Origin: Brachionus manjavacas
Lineage: Eukaryota; Rotifera; Eurotatoria; Ploima; Brachionidae
Assembly: GCA_019054805.1 (NCBI GenBank)
Contig: JAHQIY010000003.1
Location: forward strand, 6,448,001-6,512,000
Direction: 5' to 3'
Length of the DNA: 64,000 bases
Positions 1-47,854 of this stretch are shown here, piece by piece (the stretch's first letter is position 1; every line of letters begins with the position of its first letter). Position numbers and translations under genes: made by a program. The notes below the pieces were generated by a model. The model was given only the letters and a program-made list of their open reading frames with translations. It searched no databases and was not told the origin of the DNA.

Positions 1-1239
1 TGCTCGGCACCTCCTCTCAAAATGAAAGTGCAAGTCTTGGCCTGCGGACACCCGGTGAACAAATTGTATCTTTCTCCTCCTATTTGCATCTCCTCGAACA
101 TAGCACTTGAACCGAGCACGCTACGGTCCAAATTTTCGACAGTGGATTGAATAGCGCCACCACACGCTTTCATTGTTCTCTTCAAATCTTCCTCTGTAAC
201 TCGACCGGCACAGAAAAGGTCTCTGTCGGCAAAATATTGTGTGGCTACGTCACCAATTGGAAGTCGACTTAGAACAACTTTGGCGCCACTTTTGTATATT
301 TTCTCAAGTTTGTCATACAAAATTTGCCATTCGGCATCAACTATGTTCTGGTATTCTTCAACACTTTCAACTCTGATCTCAGCATTGTCTCTTTCGGCTT
401 TTAGTTCAAGCTCAATGTTAAGCAAAGCGATAAGAGGGTTTTCGTATTTTTTAGGCTGCATTTCGAATCCAGCGTAAGAAAATGTCTTCTTAAATGCCAC
501 ACCAGCCACCAAACGAGAGTCTTCAAGAGCACCACCTGTTACTTTCTTGATTCCTATCATGTTCAATGGCAGATATTCATCAAGAAGCATGACAGCATCT
601 ACGACCATGTTGGCAAAAAAGTCTTTGCTATGAGCGACTAATTTCGAACTGAGAGTAGTAGCAGCACACTTGGTCAATAGACTGCGTTGTTCTTCTTTAT
701 TCTCTTTGTTTATTTTGACCGATATTTCCCGTATTTTATCCACTGCCATTTTTGTTCCCAATCTCAATGACTTTATGATAACTTGCGGATGAACTCCTTC
801 TTCAATAAAATGCTTGCAATTTTTTAATATTTCAGTGGCCAAGAGAACTACACTGGTGGTACCATCACCCACTTCAGCATCTTGTGATTTGGCTATATCG
901 ACTAGAGTTTTGCCAGCTGGGTGAACAACTTCCAATAAGTGCATGATCGTGGCACCGTCATTCGATATGGTTGTTTTATCTTCAAGAGCACAATGAGAAA
1001 AAGATTTAATTTTTTTTTTTGATTTACTTTTAGAATCGACAACCAATTTGTCCATGCCTCTGGGACCCAAGGTTGAGCGTACTGACTCGGCGATGGCGCA
1101 ACAGGCATTTATGTTGGTGATGATTTGAGGTTTGCCTTGAGAGGAGTCAGTGCCTTCTTTGAGTAAAATGATTTGTGGTTGCTTTAGAATTTAAATATAA
1201 TTAGATTTTTCAATCATTTAGTTGATAGAAATGTACCAT
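1..1239 (-). CDS. CCT7: T-complex protein 1 subunit eta (CCT7), 5' part
   Basis: Group II chaperonin subunit of the cytosolic TRiC/CCT ring, which folds actin, tubulin and other proteins using ATP. The minus strand encodes about 380 N-terminal residues of a roughly 540-residue family; the rest lies beyond base 1. Visible are GPRGMDKL, the nucleotide-site motifs ISNDGATIM and GDGTTSV, and the eta-typical [15 protein letters not shown] and [17 protein letters not shown]. Proposed exons are 1239-1237 (ATG alone), 1181-1028 and 979-1. The 48-bp intron at 1027-980 is GT..AG and restores [14 protein letters not shown]. The 55-bp intron at 1236-1182 starts right after the ATG and ends right before CAACCACAAATC, giving [17 protein letters not shown], which matches the family N terminus. 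Identity is certain; the one-codon first exon is inferred because no in-frame ATG lies at the start of exon 2. Confidence 0.96.
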
Positions 1240-1911
1240 TTTGATCCTGGTTAGTTATTTTTAAATCTAAATAATGGAATTTTCAGAATTAATTTTTAGT
1301 TAAAATAAAATTTGAAAAAATGTGCTCAAATAAAGAATTTAAATTTTGCTAAAAAATAAAAAGTTATTTGTGAGAAATTAGAAAAATTATAATTTTTTCC
1401 AAATCGGTACTTGAATGAGACTTTAGAAAAAGCAATTAAAAATTTGAATTTTTTAAATGTATTGTTGATATGGGGATCTTGATGATGATTTCTGTAAAGG
1501 TTGAATTTATTTTTATTAAGTATGTACATTGCCATGATTAGAAATAGTCTTGTGCATAAAAAGCATGTGGAATCTTGATTTCTTATTCAGTGCATGGCTT
1601 TTGTTGAAAAGAGCTTAGTAACTAATAAAAATAAAACAGTCTCGAAAAAAGTTAAATAAGTTTTGAAATTGTTTGCATTCACCAAACAACCTTTTTTTTA
1701 AATTAATTTAGAGTTTTGAAAGATAAATAATTTAAAAGATTAATTATCATCACCCAAACTCCTGGGATTCTAATTAAAAATTGATTCTTTTCAAAAAAAA
1801 ATGAGTATAGAAAATTGACTGACCTATTAATTTCTCGCAAGATAATCATTATCAGATTTTTAATTTAATATTAACTTATTTAGTTATAAACAAAAAATTT
1901 TAGTAATCTTT
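1240..1911. other. AT-rich spacer upstream of CCT7
   Basis: Nothing beyond AT-rich sequence is visible. It should hold the CCT7 promoter, but I see no convincing element. Short open frames here have no coding character. Confidence 0.5.
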
Positions 1912-2053
1912 TACAGTACATCCTAAAACTAACTTCATCGATTTCTTTCCTTTCCTTTTCCTTTCCTCTTCCTTCTTTTTCCTTCTTTTTTCTTAGAGGA
2001 AAGGAAGAGGAAAAGAAAAGAAAGCATTGAAGTTAGTTTTAGGATGTACTGTA
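1912..2053. mobile_element. 142-bp MITE with perfect 26-bp inverted repeats
   Basis: The two ends are perfect 26-bp inverted repeats (1912-1937 and 2028-2053), beginning TACAGTACATCC and ending GGATGTACTGTA. Taking TA as the duplicated target, the element proper starts CAGTACATCC, as is usual for Tc1/mariner superfamily ends. The interior is pyrimidine-rich (CTTTCC runs) and then purine-rich, so the whole element can fold as one long hairpin. No coding capacity. Family assignment is inferred from the CAGT end and TA flank. Confidence 0.8.
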
Positions 2054-2198
2054 ATTGATCAAACAGTAGCGGAAGTAAAGTTTATTGGAAAAGATTAATT
2101 TATAGAAAAAGGTTTTTTTCTTTAAGTTTTTAAAATTATCTAAGTTAATTGGGTTTTTGTTTAATTTTGCAAAGTATAACGGTAAATAGTAAAATCAT

Positions 2199-2318
2199 CC
2201 CGTTTTTTTTTATCCCCAAAATATTATCCCGTGGAAAATTATCCCATTCTCTTATTTAAGAAATCTATCCTGTTTTTAAAAAAATAAAAAACATCCCGTT
2301 TTCTTATTTAAGAAAACC
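2199..2318. repeat. Degenerate short repeats of ATCCCGTTTTCTTATTTAAG type
   Basis: A local run of imperfect units built on ATCCCGTTTT and CTTATTTAAGAAA; the clearest two copies lie near 2242-2270 and 2293-2317. Units vary in length and sequence, so this is a decayed tandem array rather than a clean satellite. Confidence 0.45.
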
Positions 2319-2394
2319 TCAGGTGGTCATTACCTTAAATGTGCTAGAGTCTAAAAAGGATCTAATCCAGAGTCTAAAAAATATATTAAGAGTT

Positions 2395-3050
2395 TATTTT
2401 ACCCAATGGTTGATGAAATAAAACAGCGTTGTAGTTCACGGTTGAACTTAATAAAAATATTGTCAAACAAAAAGTGGGGGCTTAATTATTGCACACTAGG
2501 AAACCTATATAAATCTTTAATCGGATCTATAATTGATTACTATTTTCCGTGTCTAAAATCATTTTCAGAGACAAACATTAAAAAATTCAAGTTTTACAAA
2601 ACTTAGCAGTTCGTTATATACTTAAACTTAAATATTATACTCCTTCCAATATTGTGCATCATGAGCTCCTGAATAAACTTAAACTCTTAACTCTCTGGAA
2701 TCGACTTTTTGAATTGAGCGAAAGATATGTAGCGGGAGAACTGCGTCATTCTGCCCCATTGGTTGTCAAGCTGGTTGATGAATATAAAGCGGGTTTTGAA
2801 TCAAGGTGTGTTCAATACCCGACTCCATTGTGTAATTGCTATCTTACTATTTCTTCTTTCTTTCCTGAACAGTTCAATACTTAAATTCTTTGCACATGTC
2901 ACCACAATTTATAAATTTTTAATTGTCTTTTTGTTATATTTTAACTTATTTTTAATTTTTCTTTACATTTTTATTTAATTTTTTTTTTAATCTGAAGGAG
3001 CTTAAGCTCGGCACAGATAAAACAAATAAATAATAATAAATAATAAATAA
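2395..3050 (+). mobile_element. Truncated, frameshifted non-LTR retrotransposon 3' end (LINE family A)
   Basis: Encodes the C-terminal end of a reverse-transcriptase polyprotein in pieces: MVDEIKQRCSSRLNLIKIL and GLNYCTLGNLYKSLIGSIID (2406-2600), then, after a frame change, the ELLNKLKLL..LFELSERYV region (2654-2880). The same protein is found in the two minus-strand copies at 3062-5046. The 3' end carries a signature, CTGAAGGAGCTTAAGCTCGG, followed by an A/T-rich AAATAAATAATAA tail. 5' truncation and frame damage show it is dead. A tiny minus-strand remnant of the same family (ACATTTAAGGTAA) lies just upstream at about 2320-2352. Confidence 0.85.
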
Positions 3051-3061
3051 GATAATTAAAA

Positions 3062-3914
3062 ATTATTTTTTATTTTTTATTTATTTTCTGTACCGAGCTA
3101 GGTCTCCTTCAGAATAAATTAAAAAAAAATCAAAATCAAAATCAAAATAAAATTAAAGCTAATAAAATGATAAAAAAAAAAATCAAAATAAAGTAAATAA
3201 GCCAAAAAAATGAAGTTTAGAAGACATAGATTGTTACATGTGGCACATGTTTAGATATCTCAGATTTCAGGAAAAAAGGAGGAAATAGTAAGGTAGCAAT
3301 TACACAATGGAGTTGGGAATTCAATATATCTCGATTCGAAACCTTCTTTGTATTCCTCCACCAGTCTTACAACCAATGGAAAAGAATGACTCAGTCCTGT
3401 CCCAACATATCTCTCACTCAACTCAAAAAGCCGATTCGAGACTGTTAGTAATTTAAGTTTATTAAAAGCTTCATGATGCACGATGTTGGAGGGAGTATCA
3501 TATTTTAACTTAAGGATGGATCTTAGTACTGTATTCTCAATTGCTTGTAGTTTTTTGATATTTTTTTCTGAAAATGAATTCAAGCAAGGAAAAGAATAGC
3601 CTAAAATTGATCCGACTTAAGATATATAAATTTCCTAGTGTGTTTTGAGTAAGACCCCATTTTTTATTTGACAATATCTTAATAATATTAAGCCTTTTGT
3701 TGCAGCGTTCTTTAATTTCGTCTACTAATTTATTAAAATTTAATTTGGAATCAAATTTTATCCCAAAAAACTTGATTTCTTTTTGGCTCATTATTCTGTT
3801 TCCATAAATTTTTAAGTTTTTAAAATTATCTAAGTTAATTTTTTGTACCTAGAGAAGACAACTGAACACGACTTTTCAACTGATATCTTCATTTTCCATT
3901 TAATAAGCCATTGT
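3062..3914 (-). mobile_element. LINE family A copy 2, 5'-truncated
   Basis: Minus-strand copy of the same LINE. Frames at 3791-3537 and 3583-3260 give RQKEIKFFGIKFDSKLNF-like and NTVLRSILKLKYDTPSNIVH segments, in different frames, so it is frameshifted. The 3' signature (CGAGCTAGGTCTCCTTCAG on the plus strand) and the ATTTATTTT-rich tail lie at 3062-3112. Homology runs to about 3914, where it stops exactly at the 3' tail of copy 3. There is no intact reverse transcriptase. Confidence 0.85.
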
Positions 3915-5046
3915 TCTAGTTATTTATTTATTTATTTATTTGTTTTCTGTACCGAGCTAGAGCTCCTTCAGAATAAGTTAAAAATTAAAAAAATAAAATA
4001 AAAATAAAATTAAAGTAAATCAAATAAGATAAAAAAAAAAAAAAAAAAAAAAAAAAAAGAATTAAAAAAAAGTAAATAAGCTAAATAAATGAAAATTAAG
4101 AATATATAAAATTGGAAAAGATTGTTACATGTGGCTCATGTTTAAATAGTTCAAGTTTCAGGAAAAAAGAAGAAATAGTAAGGTAGCAATTACACAATGG
4201 AGTTGGGTAGTCAATATATCTTGATTCGAAACCTTCTTTGTATTCCTTCACCAGTCTTACAACCAATGGAATAGAATGACTCAGTCCTGCCCCAACATAT
4301 CTCTCACTCAATTCAAAAAGCCGATTCGAGACTGTTAGTAATTTTAGTTTATTAAAAGCCTCATGATGTACGATGTTGGAGGGAGTATCATATTTTAACT
4401 TAAGAATAGATCTGACTGCTGTATTCTGAATTGCTTGTAGTTTTTTGATATTATTTTCTGAAAATGAATTCAAGCAAGGAAAAGAATAGTCTAAAATTGA
4501 TCCGACTAAAGATTTATATAGATTTCCTAGTGTGTTCTGATTAAGACCCCATTTTTTGTTTGACAATATCTTAATAATATTTAGCCTTTTATTGCAGCGC
4601 TCTTTAATTTCATCTACCAGTATATTAAAGTTTAATTTAGAATCAAATTTAATACCAAGAAACTTGATTTCTTTTTGTCTCTCTATTCTGTTTCCATAAA
4701 TTTTTAAGTTAAGATTATCACTCTCTTTTTTGTACCTAGAAAAGACTAATGAACACGACTTTTCAACCGATATCTTCATTTTCCACTTAATAAGCCATTG
4801 TTCTAATTCGTTGAGGTATTTATTGATCTTATTTTCTAGGTTCCCTTTTTTGTTATAAATGAAGAATGTAACTAGATCATCTGCAAAAAGCAGAGAGTAT
4901 TCATTATTTGTTTTGTTTCTTTTAGGGATGTCATTAATGTATATACTAAATAAAAGAGGACTAATTACTGAGCCTTGAGGAACACCTGCAGTTATTTGAT
5001 ATTCTTCGCTCAAATGGTCATTCACATTTACCTTAAATGTCCTAGT
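3915..5046 (-). mobile_element. LINE family A copy 3, longest copy, with RT catalytic core
   Basis: Open frame over 5025-4096 covering the second half of a reverse transcriptase: ITAGVPQGSVISPLLFSIYI, then LLFADDLVTFF with the catalytic ADD box, then KWKMKISVEKSC and the shared C-terminal region. Upstream codons RTFKVNVNDHLSEEYQ continue the frame without a start codon to about 5046, then stops appear, so the element is 5'-truncated. The 3' end at 3915-3970 has the same signature and an ATTTATTTATTT tail. This frame is the least damaged in the family here and could be a useful consensus source, but the element lacks its 5' half and is not autonomous. The jockey/CR1-like grouping is my inference. 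Confidence 0.9.
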
Positions 5047-5563
5047 TTACTGTCAACTTTTTTTTATATTTAGTGCTCTTTTTTTGCTTTTATCGGATTA
5101 TCCGATAATTTAATGGATATAAAAACACCGCAAAAAAATTAAAAATAAGTTAACCGAAATTCTTTAATTAATAAAGTTAATGGCCTTTTTCTGATTCAAA
5201 AGCGCATTTGATTGAGCTTATCAATAAAGTAAGAATTGACCCAATCGAACAAGAAACTAGCTCGAGTTTAACTCACACATCAAAATGTTATAAATTAACA
5301 GTTATTCGGCATATTCATTAAAACAGCTTCAAGAATTATGCCAGAAATCGGAAAAAAAGATGTTTTAATAAAACGCTTGGATAGGTTTTATAAAGTCTTG
5401 AAACCGCAAAATTTAACAAGCAATGAAGATCATTTGATAGATGAAGAAGAGCTCATTGAAAAACGATTGTCTAATCAAGAAGATACGGGACGATTTAATT
5501 GAAAAAATTTTTCCTTAAATTCTAAAATCGTATTCGTTTTTCTTTAAAAACGTTCGTTTTTGT

Positions 5564-5594
<31 letters not shown>

Positions 5595-5735
5595 CAAAAA
5601 AAAAAATCTTACTTTTTTATTTTTTATTTTTTTGTAAATATTCCGTTTTTTTTTTTATGTTCTATTTTCTTTTTTTTTCGTATTTAATAATTTTATTTTA
5701 TATTTCTTATTTTTGTTTTTTTGAAACATTTTATT
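5047..5735. other. Spacer with poly(A) tract and one short open frame
   Basis: Contains a poly(A) tract at about 5565-5600 and a 54-codon plus-strand open frame (5338-5502, MPEIGKKDVLIKRLDRFYK at its start, acidic and lysine-rich). The frame is richer in polar residues than random AT-rich DNA would give, but I do not recognise it. It may be a fragment of a mobile-element protein. Confidence 0.3.
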
Positions 5736-5938
5736 TAAGCTTGGCAAAGGAGCGAAAGCTCGAGCCAATATTTATTTATTTATTTAAATAAAGACGTTTA
5801 TCATCATCATCGTTTTTCTTTACATTTTTATTTTATTTTGTCTTATTTTTTATTTTTATTTAATTTATTTTTTTTTAATCTGAAAGAGCTTTAGCTCGGC
5901 ACAAATAAAACAAATAAATAAATAATGAATAAATAAAT
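5736..5938 (+). mobile_element. Two LINE 3' tails in tandem
   Basis: 5736-5812 holds GGAGCGAAAGCTCGAGCC, an ATTTATTTATTT stretch and a (ATC)n end, which looks like the 3' tail of one LINE type. 5863-5938 holds CTGAAAGAGCTTTAGCTCGG and the AAATAAATAAATAA tail of family A. Neither has coding sequence left. Confidence 0.6.
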
Positions 5939-6949
5939 CGTATTCCAAAAACAAAATACTTTGGTGCAACAATAATTTTTTTGTATTTTTTTTTTGTTAA
6001 AAATTTATTTTTTTGTCTTAAACTTATATTTTTATAAAAAAAAAAATAATATTTTTATTGTCTTTTTCATTATCTTATTTATTTTATTTTTGTTACACGT
6101 GTAACACGAGTTAGCTTTTTTGACATCCAATAAATCCTAGCTAAATTTATGTAGCATTCAATTCTATAGAAAATTTTACTATTAAAAAGCATTTTTTAAA
6201 TTAAAAATTTTAATCATATTAAATTAATTTTCTTATTTTAAATCTTCTATCAAAAGTCAAAAAGGAGTTTTTATTTATTTAATTAAAGTCCCATGGACAA
6301 ATTGAAATAAGAATTTAAAATACAATTAAATTATTATGTTATTATATTTTTTATGTTTTTGCTAAAATAAAGGAAAATTTAGTTTGTTGTTTTGCTGCTT
6401 ATTTCGTTTTTTAATTTCTAATTATCTTTAAATTTATTGAAATGATCAAATTTTTGAATTTTTGTGCTTCGAATTTAATTTTCTTCAAAATTTTGGAATA
6501 AGACGATAATTATTTAGTAAGGAATTTTAATTCAAATGGTAATAAATACCCTTTTAAAAAATCAATTAATATTTAAATTTTTAAAGCTCTTTTTAAGGTT
6601 AATTGTATTTTCTTTAGAATTTATTTGAAGAAAAAAATCACAAATATTTTTTATTTTATTTGAAAAAAGAAAGAGGGTCAAAATAATTTATCAGGAGAAT
6701 TCTAATAATTTTATTTTTTTATAATATAACTTTGAATTGAATTCAAAATCTAATTAAACATGTAGACCTTGATTTATGAGTTTTAATTACAGGTATCATT
6801 GTTACTTTGTATTTAAGACGTTTTTTTTTAAATTTGAACCAAAACAAGTATTCTAAAATTCATATTTATTATAAAAAAATTTTAATTGATATAAATTATA
6901 CTATCAAATTTTTTTCTTTTTTTTTTACTTTATTTCAAATGATTTAAAA
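5939..6949. other. AT-rich spacer
   Basis: No gene seen. There is a small palindrome, GTTACACGTGTAAC, at about 6092-6105 and otherwise only AT-rich sequence with homopolymer runs. Confidence 0.4.
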
Positions 6950-7578
6950 TGGAACAAGCAATGTTACGCAGCGGATGCAAAGGCAAATAGCGTTTTGGGT
7001 CAAATAAAGAGTGAAAAGATTGGGCCACTTTACAAGGGGCTGGTTCACCCTCATCTTGAATATGCAGTTAGTGTTTGGTAGCCTTCGTTTACAACGGACA
7101 TAAATATACTTGATAAGGTTCAGAAGAGAGCAACCAAATTGGTTAAATCAGTTAAAGAGAAACCTTATGAAGTAAGACTTCAAATGTATAAGATTGTGCA
7201 CAAGGTTGAGAATATAGAATTGGTAAATGATGTGAATTATGCTAAAAGTTTGACTCTAAATTTTAGAAGATTAAATGATAAAAAGTTGGAAAGTGAAATT
7301 AACAAAAGAGGACGGTATCGCTACAATTTCTTAATGAACAGAGTTGTCGAGGCATGGAATCAAATGCGGTTAATGCGAAGTCAGTCAATAGTTTCAAAGC
7401 ATTTATAGACCTGGAAATTTTTGGAATGGCTCAAGGCAACGCCTGCAATGGTCATTTTAGGGTAAGGCGAAATTATGCGCAATATAGTAAACAGCAGTAT
7501 AAGCATCTGCATATATTGCAGTTTACTACTACTTCATCGCCTTTGAGGTGTCTAATGAAGTAAATAATAATAATATAC
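6950..7578 (+). mobile_element. CR1-like LINE 3' end, decayed
   Basis: Reading from 6950 gives WNKQCYAADAKANSVLGQIK then GPLYKGLVHPHLEYAVSVW, a stop, and ILDKVQKRATKLVKSV, the usual region after the reverse-transcriptase fingers of CR1/L2-type elements. RGRYRYNFLMNRVVEAWNQM follows at about 7310-7372, and NAKSVNSFKAFIDLE in the next frame. About 40 residues between the EVRLQ and MYKIVHK segments seem deleted compared with related elements. The sequence ends with AATAATAATA near 7578, a typical microsatellite-like tail. One stop and one frameshift make it non-functional. Confidence 0.82.
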
Positions 7579-7980
7579 CCAAAAAGAACGTGAAAATACG
7601 TTTATCCCCAATTAGGTTTTAATTCAGTACTTAGGAAATTTTATTAAAATTATGCATTTCCAATTTTGCAAAAAAATCTCTTTTTTTATTTAATAAAAAA
7701 TCTCTTTCATTATTTGAAATCAATTTGAAAAAGAATATCTAATAAGTATAAGTTAAAAAGAGATATAAAATTTTTTTGACGCTAAATTTTTCTTTTTTAA
7801 AATTTTCAATATTTAATTAAATAAAATTTCGAATTGGCAAAACATTAGAATTTTGGTTTAATTTTCAATGGAGGAACTGAATAAAGCTCTGATGCATTAT
7901 TGATAAGATATATTTTAATTAAAATCAAAAAGGCTTTTCTAAAACAATTTTATTTTATATTTTTTATTCTGATTTGATAG
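7579..7980. other. AT-rich spacer upstream of the receptor gene
   Basis: No coding signal. The last bases before the next start codon read TTTGATAG|ATG, which resembles a 3' splice site; a 5' untranslated exon or a trans-splice site could end here. Confidence 0.35.
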
Positions 7981-10194
7981 ATGAATTTAATAGATTTTTT
8001 CGTACTTCTTTGTATAGTAAGTGCCGAAACAAAATGTACATTAAATGGAGTGAATCAATTGCAATGTTTTTATGAGAATGATGTGATTTTGGATCAAGAA
8101 TTTCTCGATCATCTAACGCTTTATGAGAATGTAACTATAAATTTATCACATCATCAGCTATTTATCGGAAAAATTACAGATTTATCAAAATATTCTAATT
8201 CGAATTTAGTTATCAAAAATGCGTCTAAATTTCACATGAGCAATTCTTTTCCTATAATGAGATTAATTAATGAAATTCATGATAGTCATCTCGAAATATA
8301 TTTTAATGGCACAAGCTTGATAAATAAAGAGCTTTGTTTGAATTTAATTAAATTTGTTCTTAATAAAATTGAGTACTCAAAACATCGCAAATCATCAGTT
8401 GTCTTGAAAAATGTTACATACCCAAAGACTCTGTGTCCATTGATATTTTATTCTTCGAACATTGAAATTTTAAAATTAAATCTTTTTAATGATTTCCCAA
8501 TTTTTTTGCAGCTATCAATCCAAGAATATCTTGACTATTATTCAAATACAAAAATCGATCAAATAGAAGTTAATGGCTTTGTTGGAAGTCTTAAAAGAAA
8601 TTTTTTTAATTTTTTAATTCACTCTAATACAAGAAAAGTTTCATTTTTTAATTCATCTTTTGATGATATTGATGAAGATGCCTTTACTTATGTTTCAAGT
8701 TTGGAACAATTGAAATTCGAAGTGGAAAACTTTAAAGACTTTTGGCAAAATTCAAATAAAAAATGGTTACAAAATTTAAATATTCATTCTTTTATTAACA
8801 ATTTAAGCGACTGTGTTGGTTTGAGCTTGAAAAAATCTAGTGGATATTATGTCTCTAGAATTTATCTAATTTTAAACGATCTAAACAAAAACTATACTTA
8901 TCCTGATGATGATTTCTGTAAATTTGTACATTTTCCACATAAAAATATGGTTTTTCCGATAATTAATTCGAAAAAAAATTTGACATGCACATGCTCACTA
9001 ATTTGGCTTTTATTAAACTATAAATTTGAATCCTTTTTTAAATCAGATCAGATATTTATTTCAATGAGTACTGATTCAGTATCGAATTGCTTCGATAATT
9101 TTGAACACCAAGTAGATAGGTGCAATTTTAGCCAAAAGATGACAAATTGTGGAATATTAAATTTCGATAGATCGGAATACTTTTTTAATTGTGACGTGAA
9201 TTACAAAACAACTTGTCCATTCATTATATTGGAAGTTTTGATAATGATGGTCATTTTTATGGTAGGACTTCCTCTTATAAGTATTAGCTTTTTGTCATTA
9301 CTCATTGGAAATTTAAAGGAAAAAATATATGATTATTTAAAGATTCAACTCTTTTTTCAAATAATATTAATGTTAACTCTTGCTTTTAATTTTGTTTGTA
9401 AATTTTCATCAGACTTAGTGACCTTACCAGAAGATTTATCTTGTGACATGGATTTTCGTTTTGATAACATGATTTTAATTCTTATCAAATATAGATTTAT
9501 TAATTTTTTAACTTATTTTTCGATAAGTTGTTCCTTGTTGGCCACTTATTTGATGATTTTAGACAGGTATTTGTTTATTACAAATCAGAAATATTGCAAA
9601 GTTTATTTCATTTTGAACAAAAGTTATTCTATTATGCTACCAATAATTATTTTTATTGCTGTTTTTTTAAACTTTGATTTAATAGGTCTGATACTTTTCA
9701 AACCATATTTAATCGACTGGTTCGATTCATTAAAACTTAAAATAAACATTTCACAGGACTTGCTTCAATTATTTTTCGTTTTGACAGTTCTTTTAATAGA
9801 TTTAAAACTGATTATTTTTATCTATCGATATAATTTTAAAAATAAATTAGGAATCTATAGAAAATCAAAAAAATCCAAAAAATTCATTTATCAGAGTTTA
9901 TTTCTTGTTTTCCTTAACAGCTCATTGATAATAATATCGAGAATTCCTAATTTTATTCTCAGTTATAAAAAACTAAACAGTTTTTTTTACTTCAAAAATT
10001 CAATTGTAACGTTTGAGGATATAAATCAACACTTAAATCATTTATTCTGGATTTTTTTGATAATGAATAATTTGGTTTGTGTGACTCAATTTTTCATTAA
10101 TTATTTTATGGATAAGAATTTTAAAGAATCTGTCCGTCGGCTGATGTCAATTTTAAAAAATAGTTCAAGAAAATCAAAAAAAAAATCTAAATGA
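7981..10194 (+). CDS. LRR-ectodomain seven-transmembrane receptor (rhodopsin-like GPCR, orphan)
   Basis: Single-exon gene for a 737-residue membrane protein. Residues 1-17 form a signal peptide (MNLIDFFVLLCIVSA). Residues about 19-390 are an extracellular region with weak leucine-rich repeats (for example FVGSLKRNFFNFLIHSN and DEDAFTYVSSLEQLKFEV) and an LRR C-cap-like CTCSLIWLLLNYKF near 335-349; many NxS/T sites are present. Seven hydrophobic helices follow at roughly 413-437, 453-474, 497-524, 550-573, 594-616, 636-656 and 687-709. LDRYLFI after helix 3 stands in for the DRY motif, and MDKNFKESVRRL after helix 7 looks like helix 8. The tail is lysine- and serine-rich. A G-protein-coupled receptor fits best; ligand unknown. 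The canonical NPxxY is not clear. The ATG directly follows TTTGATAG. I see no close named orthologue. Confidence 0.8.
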   Translation: MNLIDFFVLLCIVSAETKCTLNGVNQLQCFYENDVILDQEFLDHLTLYENVTINLSHHQLFIGKITDLSKYSNSNLVIKNASKFHMSNSFPIMRLINEIHDSHLEIYFNGTSLINKELCLNLIKFVLNKIEYSKHRKSSVVLKNVTYPKTLCPLIFYSSNIEILKLNLFNDFPIFLQLSIQEYLDYYSNTKIDQIEVNGFVGSLKRNFFNFLIHSNTRKVSFFNSSFDDIDEDAFTYVSSLEQLKFEVENFKDFWQNSNKKWLQNLNIHSFINNLSDCVGLSLKKSSGYYVSRIYLILNDLNKNYTYPDDDFCKFVHFPHKNMVFPIINSKKNLTCTCSLIWLLLNYKFESFFKSDQIFISMSTDSVSNCFDNFEHQVDRCNFSQKMTNCGILNFDRSEYFFNCDVNYKTTCPFIILEVLIMMVIFMVGLPLISISFLSLLIGNLKEKIYDYLKIQLFFQIILMLTLAFNFVCKFSSDLVTLPEDLSCDMDFRFDNMILILIKYRFINFLTYFSISCSLLATYLMILDRYLFITNQKYCKVYFILNKSYSIMLPIIIFIAVFLNFDLIGLILFKPYLIDWFDSLKLKINISQDLLQLFFVLTVLLIDLKLIIFIYRYNFKNKLGIYRKSKKSKKFIYQSLFLVFLNSSLIIISRIPNFILSYKKLNSFFYFKNSIVTFEDINQHLNHLFWIFLIMNNLVCVTQFFINYFMDKNFKESVRRLMSILKNSSRKSKKKSK

Positions 10195-13992: not shown

Positions 13993-16900
13993 ATGGATCA
14001 TTTTGACGATTCGATTTTTGACAATTTCACCTTTGAAAAGACAAAAAATGTCCACCAAGAAACAAAATCAAAACATCCGTCTCCCAGTCAGAGGTCGTCA
14101 CACTCAAAAAGCAAAAATAACTCGTCTAAATCGAGTGAAAATCAGAAAAGCGAACGCATCAGATACCGCAAGACCAAGCTAATGCCATGGGATATGGACA
14201 TTCTTCGCGATCGTTTCACACCACAGCCCTATCAAGTTCAGTTAATTGATTTTTATGTCAAAAACTTGACCAACTCTGATACAAATATGAAAAATTTTTT
14301 AATTTTTATGAGAAATAAAGATTGGAAAAACTACCTGAAACTAATCATCCTAAAAGAATTCCATGTTCGTCTAAGTGAAATAGAGTATGAATGTGATATT
14401 AAAAAATTTATTATTTTAGTCACTGACATGGGCTCCGAAACGAGTAAGTACGTGGAGTTGATCAACCGGCACACAAGCTTGAAAATTGCCGGCATTGAGT
14501 CCTATCTAATGAACAATTTTGACACCAACTCGCTGAAAAAATTGAAAAAAGAGGCTGAAATTTTGATTATGAATGTGTGTGTGCTTGAAACATGGCTGAA
14601 GAAGGGCTTCATTCGACCAAACGAATTGGCCTTGGCTATCTTTGAAGAAGTGTCCGCAGCTTATCACAACAATGCTTATAAAAAAGTTCTAGACTTCTTT
14701 AAATCTAGGTGCAGCAGGCCTATTATTGTGGGCTTTGGTTCATTGGAAATAAACAAATCAACTGAACCAGATGGCATAAAGCAGCATTTGGATCATCTAA
14801 AAGATATTTTTTTCGCTGACTTTGTTGAGACAGCAACCGATTTGCTCGATACGGACAATTTGTTTAATGGTGTCGAGCCAGCCGAGTGTGCTCAGATATG
14901 CGATAGTGTAAACTTGAAAAATGGCGATAATTTTGAGTCTAAACTTAGAGAAAAAATAAAAAACTCCTATCTTTATTTGGAAGAAATGAACAAATTTTCG
15001 GTGGCAAATTTGTTGAGCACTGTCAATTTTAAAGACATACAGTCTTATATAAATTTGCTTTGTGTCAGAGTTCTGAACGAATGTGTCTATTTACTGAACG
15101 AGGTTGGCATCTGGTGCTTGGCAAAGTCATTGCTGCCATTTATATGTCAATTGGACAAATTGGCACACTACATAGAAACAGCTGACCGCAAATTAAACTC
15201 GTGCGAAAATTTGGCTCCAACTATTGAGCAATTGTTTGTTGAAGGCCAAAGTTTTTCTTACAGAATTCTGGAAAATCCGTCCACTCATCAGGTGCTGTGT
15301 CTGAAGTATACTTCAACAGTTCTGCGAGAACTGCGCGAAATGTGCATCAAACAATTTGTAAATTGTAAGCATCAATCGGCAACCAGCGATGACCCGATGG
15401 AAATTTTTTTACACTTATTCACAACACCCAAGGTGCGAGCTCTAATTGATCTTTTACGAGAGTCCAGTCTGAGCTCTAGTAGGATCCATCCGGACGAGCT
15501 TTGCTGCTTGATATTAGTTCAGAATAAACAAGTGGCCACGTCGCTTAGTCTTTTGCTCAAAAAGCTGTCCAAAGAGGATCCTGGTCTGGGCTACTTGTAT
15601 CCAAATTACATAATTGGACCCTCTGGGGTTAAAACAGAATCTGACAATCAGGGACCGGACTGCTACAAGCAAGAGGACATTTTGCGCAAGTTCTACTCAG
15701 GTGAGCTTAATCTCCTAATATGTAGCTATGAAATGGAGGAAAAAATCCACTCGCCTAGCTATGTCAATCTAATTGTTAGATTTAACTGCGGCCTATTGAA
15801 TCAGAGCACTGACGAGCTGCCATTCGACTACTTCTCCTACATTTCGGTCAAGACTCGAGCTAAAACAAAAAATTCTCATTGTCATTTTTTTATTGAAAAA
15901 GAAAATTTCGAAAATTTTTTCAATCAATTTGGAAAATTTAAAAAAATTGAGTCTCTTCTAACTAATGAGTATTCTCATTTGATTAATCTAAATCGTTCAA
16001 TACACTCATACTCGGTCAATATAAGATCTTATTTGAGTCTAGAAAATTCTATTTATTACATCAATAAGTATTGTTTACGCTTGCCAAGCGATTCATTGAC
16101 CCAGTTGACGCCTAAAATAGAAATGGAAACAAGACAAAACCAGCACCAAAGGGAATACAAATGCACACTTTTTTTGCCCATCAACTCTGGCTGTAGGCAA
16201 CCGATTCAAAGTGAATGGACAGACGAGCCAAACATGGCTAAGTTGAACGCCGCTTACAGAGCATGCTTGATTCTATGCAAGCTGAGCGAAGTCACAGAAT
16301 ACCTGGAACCAGTGACCAAGGAAATATTCTACCGCCAAAAGCACAGAGCTGACTCGGATGATGAGCGCGAATGGTCTCAGTTTAACTCATGCTTTGCCAA
16401 AAATTCAGACAATCAATCGATTGCCAACTACATGTCCCAAAGACCCGGTGGCAACAAAAGAAAGCAAACTTACAGGAAAAAAATCTCGCACTATTTGACC
16501 AATTCAACTTTGGTTAGTGTTCAACAGCCGAGTTATTTGTACGCCATCAAGTGCCACTTGACCACCCCACTTCAACTCGACACTGCATCAGGTCCAAAAA
16601 AAGTAAAGGTCTTCGGAATTTTGATCACCAAGCCCTTGTTGGATGTTGTCGATTTTCCAATATTTACCTCAATGGGAGAAGAAACCATAAGCCTTGAGTT
16701 GATCAAGTCCTCTATTTTTCTGAGCCCCAACCAGCTTAGAACTCTGCGAGTGTTCCACAAATTTATATTTTCCAATGTTCTTCGAATGGAGGGCAGAGGG
16801 GCTCTGGCCTCAAATATTCTTAACTATCCAGAACAAAAACAAAACTCCAAAGGCTACTATATTTGTTTGCTGAACGAGATCAATTGCGATTTTGAATGGG

Positions 16901-19900
16901 ATCTGATGGCGTCCATTGAGGGATGTTCGGATAGGACTTTGATGAAAGTGCCCAGCTATGCGAGAAAAATCAGCGACGAAAGCCAAGAAGAAGAAGACCA
17001 AGATAACTCAAACCTGCCATCATTTAAATTTAATGAATTTTTTTACCAAGATTCTGTCGTTGTACCCTACTACAGAAATATAGACATCCAACCTCAGTTT
17101 TATTCTGTGTCCCAAATAGACTACACCCTAAGCCCTCTATCTGCGTTTCCAGTCTCCTCACATTCAAAAATTTCCGCATTTGACACATTCTACGAGTACT
17201 TTGCCTGTAAATATCGAATTTTAATAACCGACTTGAATCAGCCTCTGTTAATTGTTAACCATCCATCTACCAGACTCAATCTATTGACGCCCCGCTACAT
17301 GAACATGAAGGCCTGTGTGCTCCAGAAATCATTTCATCAAGGCTTCAAATCGGACAAAAAATCGTCCAATAGCCAAATTTTTTTGGTGCCCGAACTGGTC
17401 AATGTGCATCCGTTGTCGTCCAGTGTATGGCGCAGATCGCTGTGTTTGCCTTCGATTTTGTACCGAATCAACTGTTTGCTGAATGTCGAAGAGTTTAGGC
17501 GCGAAGTGGCCAAGTGGACTGGTGTCGGCGTGCCATGGTTTAGCGAAAGGTTTAATCGCCTCGAGTTCGTATGGGACACTAGCCGAGAGATTGAAGTCAG
17601 CAATTTGCCAGACCATGAAATTGACATAGCCATGATTGAAAGCGAGAAAAAGTCTTGTTTTCAGGAGAGCGAAATTGACCCCAAGTGGAATTTTGAAATA
17701 GGTGAATGGAATGCAAATTGTTTGAATGAGCTGCATTCTACAAACAAAAATTTAGATCTACAATTTTTAGACTTCAAGTCGAATGGAATCGATGGAGCGC
17801 CATCTGGCTGGAATGATGAAAACTTCAAGACTTTGTTCATAGATCCGAATGAGATGAATTTGCTGGTCGATGACATTGACAGTGAGTTTGAGGATTATGA
17901 AGAAGAAAGGCCCAAAAAAGTGGTCAAAGAAGACAAATATGACGAGTTTGATGAAGAAGAAGAGGAAATGAACACAAATAAGTTTACCATCGATTTGAGC
18001 ACTCTAAAGGCCGATATGAAAAAAAAATCAGCCAAACTCTTGTCCAAATTGAGTGTTAGCTCGACCAATTGTAATTTGGTCAAAGATTTGGTCAAAAGTG
18101 GCTTCGACACGGACCATCTACAGACTACTTTAAAAGCAAATGAGCACAATTTTGACTTTAGCTTGGCTAATTTGACCAATGATTGCATATTGAATAGTGA
18201 TTGTCAAATATCGACAAATTCTAAATTAAACATTGATTTTGAAAATTACAAAAATTTTGAGTGGATCAACAAGATTTTTTTTAACTTTTATTCAAAAAAT
18301 AATGAGTATCAAAATAGTTTAGATAATTTGAAAAATTTAGTAAAAAATAAAATTTCTATTGATAAATTGAACGAGTGTTTAATTGAAGCCAAATTAGACT
18401 TTCCATTGCGGAAACAATTGCTAGAAGAAAATCTAGCAAAATTTTGTGTTCTGGACATTGGAAAAAAGTCGAGCAGAAAAAAGCGAGCCAATCGTGCCGA
18501 AATCCAGTCGGCCCGTAATACCGATTGGCAATTTCATTTTAGCTTGGATGACGATTTTAATGACGAGTCAGGTCCGGGTCCAGCTCTTTTACTCCAAGCT
18601 TTGACATTGTCCAATGCTGCAGATGGCTTCGATTTGGAACGACTTGAGACTGTTGGCGATTCATTTTTAAAACAAGCCGTAACAGTTTACCTATTTTTCA
18701 CCTATCCAAATATCCACGAGGGAAAATTGAGCTTTTTGCGCAGCAAACAAGTCAGCAACTACAATTTGTACAAATTAGGCAAAAGAAAAAACATCCAAGA
18801 GTTGATCATATCAAGCAAGTTTGATCCATTGGACTCGTGGCTACCACCACTTTACGAAAGTGTTATAAGCACGAAAGATTTTGGCAGTGACTTTTCCACC
18901 ATGCTGTACACCAAAATGAACAACAGCTCCAAAATAGTGGCCAGTAAAGCGGCAGACAAAAGTGAAAAGTTTGATAAATACAAAGACCATGTTTTGTCTG
19001 ATAAATCGATAGCTGATTGTGTTGAGTCAATAATTGGGGCCTATTTGATCTGTAGTGGGCCCTTTGCTGCTCTCCAAGTCATGTCATGGTTCGGCCTCGA
19101 GGTTCTGCCAAAGGCTAAGTGTGAAGACGGCTCCGAGCTATTGATTAATTTGCCACAAGTTCCACTGCCGCAAATTGACGACCCAGCAAAATTAGATGAC
19201 TTGTTGTTCGGTTTGGAAAGTTTTGAAGCTTGCATTGGGTACAAGTTTAAGCAACCAGCATATTTGTTGCAGGCGTTCACTCATTCATCTTACACTTACA
19301 ATACCATTACGGATTGTTATCAGAGATTGGAATTTTTGGGCGATGCAATACTTGACTATGTGATTACGCGGCATTTGTATGAAGACAAAAAAAGGCATTC
19401 ACCTGGCGAATTAACTGATTTGAGGTCAGCTCTGGTCAACAACAACATTTTTGCCTATTTGGCAGTAAAATATGAATTTTACAAGTATTTCAAGTATTCT
19501 TCACCTGTTTTGTTCACCATTATTGATAATTTTGTGCGCAATCAAAAAAACAGAAATGATGAGTTCGATTTAGATGAAGAAGTAAGCTATAGCTTTTGAA
19601 TTATATAATATGTAAATTTCTCTAATTATTTAAATGAAAAAAATGTCATATAAAATTTAAATTTGTCATTTAAATTTTTTTTTTAAATTATAGAAACCAC
19701 TTAAGATCACTCTGAATGGATCCAAAATCTTCTTTTCAGTCGCGAATAGTAAATTCGAAGTTAAAAATTTTAAAAATTTAGTTACTCTTCATTTAAAAAC
19801 CTATAGTTTGGATAAAAGCAAAATTTAAGAATCTGTTAATTAATCGACTATTAAAATCGCTACCCCAAATTTTTTATTCTTTTTCCCAAATATTTAATAA

Positions 19901-22900
19901 ATTCCCCAATTATTAAGTTTATACATAAAGAGATAAATTAAAACTAAATTAAATAGAAATCCACTATTTTTAACTTATTGACACTTTTTATTAAAACAAA
20001 TTTACGAAAAAGTACCTGTAATAGAAATAAAGTAATGTTCTACTTTATGTTTTATCCAAAGTTTACGAAACAAAAATAAATTTACACTTTACAATTAACT
20101 CCCACAAAAGACGCCAAAGCTCTTAAGGTAAAATCAGACGTAGAATCTTAAACTGCTTCACCAAAAGGTTCAGTGTTAAATTATCTTATTTTATTAATTT
20201 TTCAAAACTTATTTATAGAAGACTTTTCTAGCTAACAGATCCGTAAAAATATACTCATTTATTTTGCTTTACTTTGATTATTGTTTAACACTTGAATGTT
20301 ATTTTTCAAACAATACATAAAATCAAACTTGCTAAAAGTTACAGTGGTTCTATAAAAAGCCCAGAATTAGTATAATTACGTTATTTTACGTAAGTTTTGG
20401 TCAGCCTACGTAATCTTACGTAAACATTAGTCGGTAAGGATATGTATTCTTACGTAAAATTACGTAAGCTTACATTTAAATACGCGAATTTAGGTAAAAT
20501 CGTTCTTAAATGCTTACGTTCAAAAAAATGGGGATTTTGGTAAGAAAAAATTTAAAATTGGCTTCTTTTCAAAAATATTTAATTAATTTAAAAAAAAAAT
20601 TCAATATTCTATACCATTTCTTACTTTAAAATCGATTGAATACCATCTTTTTTTCTAACAAACTCTCTCTTCTCATAATTTAGGTACTTTTTCTAAAATT
20701 TGCTATCATTTTTTAATAAAAAGTTTCAAGTTACTAATCGTGGATTTCTATTTAATTTAGTGTTAATTAATTTTTTTTTATGTAAAAACTTAATAATTGA
20801 GGAATTTATTTAATATTTGTTGAAAAAAATAAAAAATTTGGGGTATTTTATTCAATATTTGTGGAACTCGAACTCAATTTCTTTTAATTAATTTTTAATT
20901 AAACTCCAATTTCAAAATTTTTGTAAATAACTGATTTTGTTAATTTGTTTGTTTGAAATAATAGGATGATAAAATAAATTGTCTCTAAATAAAAAAATTT
21001 TTAAAGTTGTTTTTAAAGAATTTATAAAGACTAGCTACAATCAATAAGCATCGTAAAATTGACAGATTGTTTATAAATTTAATTTTAAATGAGAAAAAAT
21101 AAATTATACGTATAGAAATTATGTTGACATTTAAAAATGCTTAGTCCTTATTTTAACCAAATTTTGACATTTAAACCATAGAGAGTGCTTGAATTTTTCT
21201 GGAAATTCAGTCAACTTTTACTCTAGGCTATTATTGTAATATGTTTATATACAAGGTTATTACTAAAAAACGGATCTCCAAATATAAAACACGGACCCAT
21301 ACTTATCTCTCGAAGTAAAACACCATAACTTATCCTCCACATTTCCAGAATTTTATAGAAAATAATTTCACAAGCTTTTACGCAAAACCAAAATCTAAAC
21401 CTTATCACATTCGGTTCGACCTTTATTCAAACTTGAACTAAAGTGAGTTTTACAAAATTAAATACTTATTTTTTTTAGTTTTCAATTTAATTTATTCATG
21501 TTAATTAATCTGCTTTTAATTAAAAAAAAAAGAAACCGCTATCAACCCTAAATAAGATGTTTTACATTTAATGTATTCTTTTTATCAATTTTTTTTTATT
21601 AGAAAATTAATTAATGATTTCTTCGTTCGATTAGTAGGATAGATTCATTGGAAAAAAATCTAACAATCATGTCATTTCATATACCTTTACTTTTTTCATA
21701 TTTTCGCTCTTATCAAGCTTTTAACTTCTACATCATTCTTAGTTTAGAATTTTATTTTCCCGAATATTTAAATGTTGATTATAAAATCAGAAGAAGTTTA
21801 TAAACAAGTATTAGAATTGTTAAAGAAAATTAGTTAATATTCAAGAAAAACCTCATTAATTTTTTTTAAAGGAAATTAATGGTTTAAAATAGGAGATTGT
21901 TTCCATAAAAATCTTAAAAAATATAACTTAAAGGATAATTGAATAATAAATAAAAAAAAAAGAGAGCAGTCTATCAAATTTATTCCCGCCTGAAATAAAT
22001 TTCTATAAAAAGTTAAAAAAAAATTACGATAAAATAAAAACTAAATCTAGAATATTTTTGACCAAAAATTCTAAGAAAAATAAAGTTTAAAATATTACTT
22101 TCATAAAATTTTTAAAAATTTTTTATTAAGGATCATTTAAAAATCTCTAAAAGCTTTTAAATAAGAAGCATTTAATTTTAAAAAAAAAAAAAGCTTTATT
22201 TTATTAATATTCTTAAAATATTAAAGTTAAATCTAAATAATAATTTAATCTCACCAAACAAAAACCCATATAGGGATCGCTTTGGTAGCTTTCCGAGAGT
22301 GACTCATTCGATATCATAGGTATCGCGACGAATTGTTTTCGTCAACCATTTTCTTAAACAAGTTCTTTTTTTGATATTTTTTCGAACCATCAGTGAGGCG
22401 ATAAAAAAAACAATTTTTACTATTCATTTTTAAGTTTTTCGATTACCAAATTGATGATGAAGACGATGAATATTTTTTGTTGATGAACAACGAGGATGAA
22501 ATCGATGATTCTGAAATTAAGTCTTCGAAATTAATGGAGAATTTTGTTGAACAGGACAATCAATATAAGCCTTTTATAAATTCGCGAAACAATGAATTCG
22601 AAGAGCTTGAGGTTCCGAAATGTCTTGGCGACATCTTCGAATCTGTAGCAGGAGCGATATTTTTGGATTCAAATAAATCTTTCGACACTGTATGGAGGGT
22701 TTACTATGGACTCATGAAGCCTTATATCGACAAATTTACAAATGAAGTTCCCAAATCTCCAATAAGAGAATTGCTAGAATTAGAGCCTGAAACAGCAAAA
22801 TTTGAAAAACCAGAGCGAACAATTGATGGAAAAATTCGTGTTACAGTGTCTGTTTTTGGTCGTGGCAAATTTAAAGGAATTGGAAGAAATTATCGTATTG

Positions 22901-22965
22901 CCAAAAATGCTGCGGCTAAATTGGCGCTCAAATTTCTCAAAAGCCAATCTAAGTCAGTTGATTAA
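13993..22965 (+). CDS. DICER1: Dicer endoribonuclease with degenerate helicase domain
   Basis: Cleaves long dsRNA or pre-miRNA into small RNAs. Exon 1 is 13993-19581 (1863 codons); exon 2 is 22435-22965; joined protein 2039 residues. The donor GAA|GTAAGC and acceptor TTTTAAG|TTTTTC are both phase 0. Domains by residue: degenerate helicase about 80-640, DUF283/dimerisation 686-785, PAZ about 910-1070 ([26 protein letters not shown]), acidic linker about 1300-1330, RNase IIIa 1530-1690 ([15 protein letters not shown] and [16 protein letters not shown]), RNase IIIb from 1745 ([20 protein letters not shown] and, in exon 2, [15 protein letters not shown]), and a C-terminal dsRBD ([16 protein letters not shown] to [12 protein letters not shown]). 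All acidic RNase III residues are kept. The helicase has MRNKDWKN where Walker A should be, FEEVS for DECH, and SVKTRAKT for the QxxGRxR motif, so ATP hydrolysis is unlikely. ATG context CAAATGG is good. Confidence 0.96.
19848..20866. mobile_element. Foldback DNA element, copy A, inside the Dicer intron
   Basis: The left arm (from 19861, TACCCCAAATTTTTTATTCT) is repeated in inverse at the right arm (to about 20866, ending AAAAAATTTGGGGTATTTTA and TTCAATATTTGTGG), with arms near 200 bp. The interior (20090-20340) is also found, reverse-complemented, in copy B at 43412-44270, including GACGCCAAAGCTCTTAAGGT and CTTCACCAAAAGGTTCAGTG. So this is a full inverted second copy of the family. A TTACGTAA-rich segment of about 200 bp interrupts the right half here and is absent in copy B. 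No transposase frame. Confidence 0.75.
20338..20525. repeat. TTACGTAA-rich insertion within foldback copy A
   Basis: Starts TTACAGTGGTTCTATAAAAA and holds at least six TACGTAA motifs. It is missing at the matching place in copy B, so it probably inserted into copy A. The nearest look-alike is 12325-12617. Confidence 0.45.
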
Positions 22966-47607: not shown

Positions 47608-47854
47608 GGAAAACAAGGTTTTACCTGTTGCTCCTGTTAAACGGCTGAAAGGACAAGGCCAAGGACAAGGACAAGGACAATTTTGCTGGCATAACACTCC
47701 GCTGCCAGAATAATAAAAATAAAAGAAAAAGAAATTAGTTCTGATTATTTAATTGATTGATTTATTTTATTGAAAAATTCTTATTAAAAATAGATTAAAA
47801 ATTTTTTTTTCGTAAGTGTTGATTAAATGATTTAATGAATATTTCTGTCCAGTA
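47608..47854. repeat. Direct repeat, right copy (247 bp)
   Basis: Same as 45595-45780 but with about 60 extra bases near its start: TGTTGCTCCTGTTAAACGGC and a small GGACAA array (roughly five units). It ends CCAGTA exactly where the left copy meets the LINE tail. The shared part CCGCTGCCAGAATAATAAAA resembles a LINE 3' tail. Confidence 0.85.

Follow-up and report, generated by a model that had tools for sequence, protein, structure and literature searches.

A probable Dicer-1 gene with a decayed helicase domain in a genome whose second Dicer keeps its ATPase motifs intact

Gene model and domains at the Dicer locus

The window, the whole 64,000-nucleotide stretch of DNA that was analyzed, corresponds to C3:6448001-6512000 in a 114.17-Mb genome of 61 contigs and carries a Dicer gene on its plus strand. 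As shown in Table 1, the gene is predicted to consist of two exons. Exon 1 is contained in a stop-free frame of 1868 aa at 13993-19599 (+), which was recognized by its open frame and Pfam domains; a donor GTAAGC follows at 19582, the acceptor ends at 22434, and the two exons are joined in phase, so that the spliced product, with its single intron deduced from the sequence, would be 2039 aa long. Residue 106 corresponds to base 14308, which is the position where the earlier note on this DNA began its Dicer interval. The GC content is 0.24 in the 2-kb block upstream and 0.37, 0.41, and 0.33 in three blocks across exon 1, with a third-position GC of 0.44 for the Dicer gene; the window as a whole has a GC of about 27%, and other stretches of the same genome lie between 27% and 36%. 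Elsewhere in the window, a stop-free frame of 737 aa at 7981-10194 (+) appears by eye to encode a membrane receptor, and Pfam gave no match for it at E values up to 0.1.

Table 1. Features of the Dicer gene, with positions in the window and residues of the product.
Feature	Position	Strand	Description
Dicer exon 1	13993..19581	+	residues 1-1863; helicase, DUF283, platform, PAZ, RNase IIIa, most of RNase IIIb
Q-motif region FTPQPYQ	14215..14235	+	residues 75-81; mostly conserved, 4/7 kept relative to human YTPRKYQ
Decayed motif I (Walker A)	14314..14334	+	residues 108-114; NKDWKNY replaces TGSGKTF; Lys column kept
Decayed motif II	14641..14655	+	residues 217-221; FEEVS replaces FDECH; Glu column kept
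Decayed motif III	14734..14745	+	residues 248-251; FGSL replaces LTAS
Hel2i / partner-binding region	15031..15168	+	residues 347-392; Pfam Dicer_PBD 24.7 bits, cut-off 26
Decayed motif V	15712..15756	+	residues 574-588; human counterpart LLIATSIVEEGVDIP
Decayed motif VI	15838..15864	+	residues 616-624; YISVKTRAK replaces YVQSKGRAR; first Arg column kept
DUF283 / Dicer dimerisation domain	16048..16323	+	residues 686-777; Pfam Dicer_dimer 57.8 bits
Platform domain	16519..16794	+	residues 843-934; Pfam Dicer_platform 63.2 bits
PAZ domain	17011..17475	+	residues 1007-1161; Pfam 51.1 bits
RNase IIIa	18637..19056	+	residues 1549-1688; signature ERLETVGD and one further 10-residue signature present
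RNase IIIb, first part	19261..19581	+	residues 1757-1863; first signature including QRLEFLGDA present
Phase-0 intron (predicted from sequence)	19582..22434	+	2853 bases, GTAAGC...TTTTTAAG
Dicer exon 2	22435..22965	+	end of RNase IIIb and dsRBD; stop at 22963-22965
C-terminal dsRBD	22690..22950	+	Pfam Dicer_dsRBD 149.8 bits, E 3.3e-44

Two RNase III domains with their acidic signatures, the PAZ and platform domains, DUF283, and a C-terminal dsRBD are all present, and the product can be assigned to the Dicers. The Ribonuclease_3 match in exon 1 reaches 125.7 bits in Pfam, and the last signature of RNase IIIb, LGDIFES, is encoded at 22624 by exon 2. The claim that the RNase III core and the dsRBD are kept is thus borne out by the signatures of both RNase III domains and by the strong Dicer_dsRBD match, with the dsRBD and the end of RNase IIIb lying in exon 2 (22435-22965), outside the interval originally marked. 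In the alignment to human Dicer, the column of the human RRR loop is a gap and the R821 column does not hold Arg; the RRR loop and R821 are presumably the platform half of the 5′-phosphate pocket of the human enzyme. Unlike the platform side, the PAZ side keeps its His/Arg/Arg residues (window 16519-17475), and given the platform changes, 5′-end recognition of pre-miRNA may differ too.

For the whole protein, phmmer gives 665–674 bits to mammalian Dicers (the top five chains), human and mouse Dicer being the best whole-length match, followed by 568 bits to fly Dcr-1 and 209 bits to fly Dcr-2. Judged by these similarity scores rather than by a tree, the window gene is most likely a Dicer-1, that is, a Dicer of the miRNA type.

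The helicase region and its altered motifs

When residues 60-680 were compared with PDB chains by phmmer, 17 distinct sequences were matched at E values up to 10; the region scores 115.9 bits to AncD1D2 (E 2.4e-32), 112–115 bits to mammalian Dicers, 112 bits to human Dicer among them, 38.6 bits to fly Dcr-2, and 27 bits to fly Dcr-1. It aligns end to end with human Dicer and AncD1D2, and the register is identical against each of these and in a five-way alignment that includes fly Dcr-1 and the second Dicer of the same genome. Identity to human Dicer is 146/558 columns in the HMMER alignment and 139/516 columns (27%) in the MAFFT alignment. A protein scan places MRNKDWKN at residues 106-113, GFGSL at 247-251, and SVKTRAKT at 618-625, and the landmark segments named in the earlier note at residues 75-87 and 561-576, so its reading of the gene as a Dicer whose helicase aligns by landmarks holds, with every named motif at its residues and the AncD1D2 score in agreement. 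In Pfam, DEAD, ResIII, and Helicase_C are absent from the whole frame at E values up to 1 and from residues 60-680 at E values up to 10; the sole match for these 621 aa at E values up to 10 is Dicer_PBD, just under its cut-off.

The Walker A glycines and Thr, the Asp and His of DECH, and all four residues of motif III are changed, as are the Gln, Gly, and second Arg of motif VI, and the context of motif II has passed from VFDECH in human Dicer to IFEEVS. The five-way MAFFT alignment also reveals insertions of 9 residues ahead of motif I and 10 residues past the motif V region. Three catalytic columns survive, namely K112 (the motif I Lys), E219 (the Glu of DECH), and R622 (the first Arg of motif VI). 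It had been stated that the ATPase residues are gone; this is correct for the decay of motifs I, II, III, V, and VI, but it goes too far for the K112, E219, and R622 columns, which are kept. An active DExH-box ATPase of the RLR/Dicer type is recognized by GxGKT and DExH, and the window Dicer, with NKDWKNY and FEEVS in these places, falls outside that class. Because the P-loop glycines, the Asp and His of DECH, and motif III are lost, ATP hydrolysis by the window Dicer appears very unlikely, while the retained K112, E219, and R622 columns would leave some room for residual nucleotide binding.

The decay could be apparent only if intact Walker A and DExH motifs lay elsewhere or in an upstream exon, as the earlier note itself had pointed out; the alignments and a six-frame scan found neither near the gene. 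The scan, which covered stop-free stretches of at least 30 codons in the window, detected no DE[ACVLI]H and a single [GAS]xGK[ST], ATGKT on the minus strand at 47631, far from the Dicer gene. A missed upstream exon with the motifs was considered and rejected, since the 5.6-kb exon runs unbroken through the regions of motifs I and II, and the sequence flanking them can be aligned, which leaves no room for one.

The manner of loss was assessed on 125 invariant columns, defined as those in which human Dicer, AncD1D2, and the second Dicer of the same genome share one residue. The window Dicer keeps 11/33 of these columns in motifs I, II, III, V, and VI and 35/92 elsewhere (Fisher p 0.68); fly Dcr-1, with only its first 330 residues counted, keeps 5/15 and 22/59, respectively. 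As motif and non-motif columns are retained alike, the motifs are not singled out, and targeted loss of the ATPase motifs was rejected. The helicase domain is divergent as a whole, and the pattern suggests relaxed constraint, in which the motifs, here and in fly Dcr-1, would have lost the extra constraint imposed by catalysis. Motifs that change at the pace of the surrounding domain, together with only 27% identity to human Dicer, would also fit a helicase that is a decaying, functionless appendage of a protein in which selection maintains the RNase III core alone, but about 620 helicase codons can be aligned without meeting a stop (E 2.4e-32 against AncD1D2), and the partner-binding region can still be recognized, with Dicer_PBD near its cut-off, which makes such an appendage most improbable. 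The helicase domain would instead probably serve as a scaffold that holds the closed conformation, helps to gate the pre-miRNA hairpin, and docks a Loqs/TARBP2-type protein.

A second Dicer and the small-RNA pathway genes of the genome

The question of whether one Dicer or two are present was answered by a whole-genome search. A second Dicer gene, whose ATPase motifs are intact, also lies on contig C3, on its minus strand at about C3:7953422-7962400 and 1.5 Mb from the window gene. By exon reading, its motif I is ARTGSGKTF, and its motifs V and VI are intact (ATSIVEEGVDVP, EEGVDVP, QSK|GRARS); FDECH spans a 52-base GT...AG intron and is followed by GMTAS, these exon joins being deduced from the sequence. 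A PAZ domain is followed by the RNase IIIa signatures ERYEILGD and DKSMADCIEA, the RNase IIIb signatures are RLELVGDAVLD and LADIFES, and the dsRBD gives 29.2 bits to dsrm and 24 bits to Dicer_dsRBD in Pfam, the latter under the cut-off. A 137-aa helicase exon alone reaches 55.3 bits to Pfam DEAD and scores 131 bits to AncD1D2, 89 bits to fly Dcr-2, and 75 bits to human Dicer. The divergent PAZ–RNase III part scores 172 bits to fly Dcr-1, 157 bits to mammalian Dicer, and 89 bits to fly Dcr-2; this part is closer to fly Dcr-1 and mammalian Dicer, and therefore orthology to Dicer-2 is unproven, and the gene is best regarded as a second Dicer whose helicase has intact ATPase motifs and seems Dicer-2-like. 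Long stop-free coding stretches occur in Dicer-1 (1868 codons), the Drosha-like gene (710), and the miRNA-type Argonaute candidate (1157); the second Dicer, by contrast, is divided into several exons, and its longest open frame has 600 codons.

A third Dicer was not found among the best-scoring candidates of two genome protein searches and a Dicer_dimer profile search. The first protein search returned eight matches, one to the window gene, four to the second Dicer, two to the Drosha-like frame on C11, and one to an RNase III from C21, a bacterial contig; all four matches of the other search belong to the second Dicer or the window gene. Of the five Dicer_dimer matches, one is the window gene and two are parts of the second Dicer; the remaining two are a C23 frame that passes the cut-off only with its neighbours and a frame at C3:5260665 that stays below it; we take the C23 frame to resemble DHX9 and the C3:5260665 frame to resemble kanadaptin. 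A genome search with Dicer_PBD gave six matches, repeated ones on C10 and C4 included, and none above the cut-off. Three further places are matched by the helicase exon of the second Dicer, namely a RIG-I-like gene on C4 and, weakly, C4:3611411 and C14:1414605. Outside the genome, the Dicer protein found no relative in a contig collection without eukaryotic references (40 pattern matches) or in a viral contig collection (17 pattern matches); a 69-aa RNase IIIb query gave nine loci of 281 pattern matches, all in bacterial-titled records, which were taken as bacterial RNase III and set aside. An intronless coding exon of 5.6 kb could suggest a retrocopy, and the window gene would then be a pseudogene or a mis-assembled copy, with the true Dicer-1 elsewhere; this is hardly conceivable, given the in-phase intron before the dsRBD exon, the open state of all domains, and the lack of a third Dicer among the best candidates of the genome searches.

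Several of the matches above have contexts of their own. In the RIG-I-like frame at C4:5307190-5308188 (+), the DEAD/ResIII helicase carries GSGKT and DEIH and is preceded by a weak RIG-I_C-RD match (20.4 bits, cut-off 25.6), and this domain order is presumably reversed relative to RIG-I. C21 (1.22 Mb) is a bacterial contig in the assembly; we take the frames adjacent to its RNase III (1-9000 of the examined piece) to resemble lepB, sppA, accA, and a SulP-like transporter. Elsewhere on C21 there is a COX1-family oxidase frame, which was the sole match in a COX1 search of the assembly that yielded no mitochondrial COX1. The contig may represent a symbiont or a contaminant.

In addition, candidates for other components of the small-RNA pathways are present. 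DGCR8 structures are the best match (74 bits) of a frame on C24 that encodes a dsRBD, and a 710-aa frame on C11 (L020 3353-5485) shows a pair of RNase III domains together with a dsRBD in Pfam, so that it appears Drosha-like by architecture. Two neighbouring genes on the minus strand of C5, at about 3581100-3585000, encode dsRBDs that, among PDB chains, match Loquacious best, at 69.5 and 49.6 bits, and are candidate Loqs/TARBP2-type partners; by analogy with fly Loqs and R2D2, the adjacent pair could mean one partner per Dicer. Piwi-domain matches occur in at least 8 places (at least 20 stretches) across the genome, among them an unbroken 1157-aa frame on C8 (L051 1635-5108) that we take to resemble a miRNA-class Argonaute. 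The earlier suggestion of a miRNA-type Dicer gains support from the ATPase-intact second Dicer and from the candidate DGCR8, Loqs/TARBP2-type, and Drosha-like genes. With the helicase region present, motifs I–III lost, a second Dicer intact in its ATPase motifs, and candidate partner genes at hand, the window gene belongs by its sequence with the helicase-degenerate Dicer-1 proteins.

The window Dicer could also be a general-purpose enzyme, able to process long dsRNA even in the absence of ATP, the second Dicer being specialised or minor. Its RNase III core and dsRBD are both present, and it has been reported that helicase-inactivated worm or fly Dicers can still make endo-siRNAs (PMC11114477); against this stand the second Dicer, in which RNase III signatures accompany a full set of ATPase motifs, and the two Loqs/TARBP2-type genes, which would fit two pathways, and a general-purpose role is considered unlikely. 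An ATP-independent miRNA Dicer working alongside an ATPase-type Dicer in a bilaterian animal with a small genome, as in flies, is considered highly probable. The window Dicer would then no longer hydrolyze ATP and would cut pre-miRNAs from Drosha/DGCR8 once, without ATP, and the second Dicer, with its complete ATPase motifs, would take over long dsRNA. How the window Dicer folds, that it works without ATP, which substrates it cuts, and how the work is shared between the two Dicers are predictions from sequence.

Comparison with known Dicers and possible significance

It has been reported that fly Dcr-1 has a degenerate helicase and is ATP-independent, and that fly Dcr-2 hydrolyses ATP, by which dsRNA is fed into the enzyme (PMC10328071). 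The window gene fits this description of Dcr-1 in sequence, and the helicase of the second Dicer fits that of Dcr-2. In fly Dcr-1 (PDB 8dfv), Walker A, DECH, and motif III are decayed too (CLGHRSSKEF, LEDCH, LAGP), and the fly, like this genome, has a further Dicer, in the fly's case one with an active helicase. The comparison with Dcr-1 covers motifs I–III, and motifs V and VI are altered as well in the window Dicer, whose helicase region scores far lower to Dcr-1 than to human Dicer. The earlier note had set the window gene against processive cutting of long dsRNA in flies; this trait belongs to Dcr-2, and the fitting comparison is Dcr-1. Since Dcr-1 is likewise decayed, the window Dicer is less exceptional than had been supposed.

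Human Dicer differs in having intact helicase motifs, in contrast to the decayed ones of the window Dicer. Its helicase has been called inactive (PMC10159624), its helicase domain has been reported to hydrolyse ATP (PMC11658451), and the helicase of mammalian Dicer has been given a structural, ATP-independent role (PMC10328071). As the same intact motifs have been called both inactive and active, motif state and activity need not agree.

Among lophotrochozoans, altered motif II has been described in Dicer-1, as ECSN in cephalopods and ENCH or DHCQ in some bivalves, and DDCH is found in most annelids and gastropods (PMC11114477); altered DECH boxes in molluscs also appear in PMC10159624. The window gene resembles these molluscan and annelid Dicer-1 proteins in its mutated motif II, but these phyla are described as lacking DICER2 (PMC11114477), whereas a second Dicer with an intact helicase is present here. 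In the same survey, three species of Syndermata and every platyhelminth that it covered have both DICER1 and DICER2; the DECH box is described as conserved in Syndermata and highly diverged in Platyhelminthes, and DICER2 as lacking a helicase domain in most lophotrochozoans, two Syndermata paralogs excepted (PMC11114477). The present genome is similar in having a probable DICER1 plus a second Dicer, and a diverged DECH box is known from the Platyhelminthes of that survey, but it differs from that account in that the Dicer-1 helicase is full-length and decayed and that of the second Dicer is intact. As for number, one Dicer was counted in the rotifer Adineta vaga (PMC4793324), and an average of 3.5 is given for monogononts (PMC7943196), compared with the two found here. 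Among the matches listed for open-access rotifer, Brachionus, or monogonont papers, no title or abstract opening mentions a degenerate Dicer-1 helicase in a rotifer.

Reconstructed ancestral animal Dicer helicases hydrolyse ATP, an ability that was later lost in some lineages (PMC10159624, PMC10328071). Degenerate Dicer-1 helicases are already known from Drosophila and some molluscs, and the window gene is a further, probably independent case; it gains interest from two features of this genome, namely a second Dicer that keeps its ATPase motifs and a duplication of the partner gene. It is tentatively proposed, at somewhat less than even confidence, that a fly-like split between Dicers arose independently in animals other than arthropods, probably in a rotifer-type lineage, with the ATPase of Dicer-1 lost, that of a full-length second Dicer kept, and the Loqs/TARBP2-type partner tandem-duplicated, perhaps one for each Dicer. 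If so, the statements on the Syndermata DECH box and on helicase-less DICER2 (PMC11114477) would need refining here. A full-length decayed helicase can yield zero Pfam helicase matches, and therefore domain surveys could overlook such Dicers. A pair of Dicers outside flies, one with a dead motor and one with a live motor, would amount to a second natural instance of the fly situation and would test whether motor loss in Dicer-1 follows the handing of long dsRNA to another Dicer.
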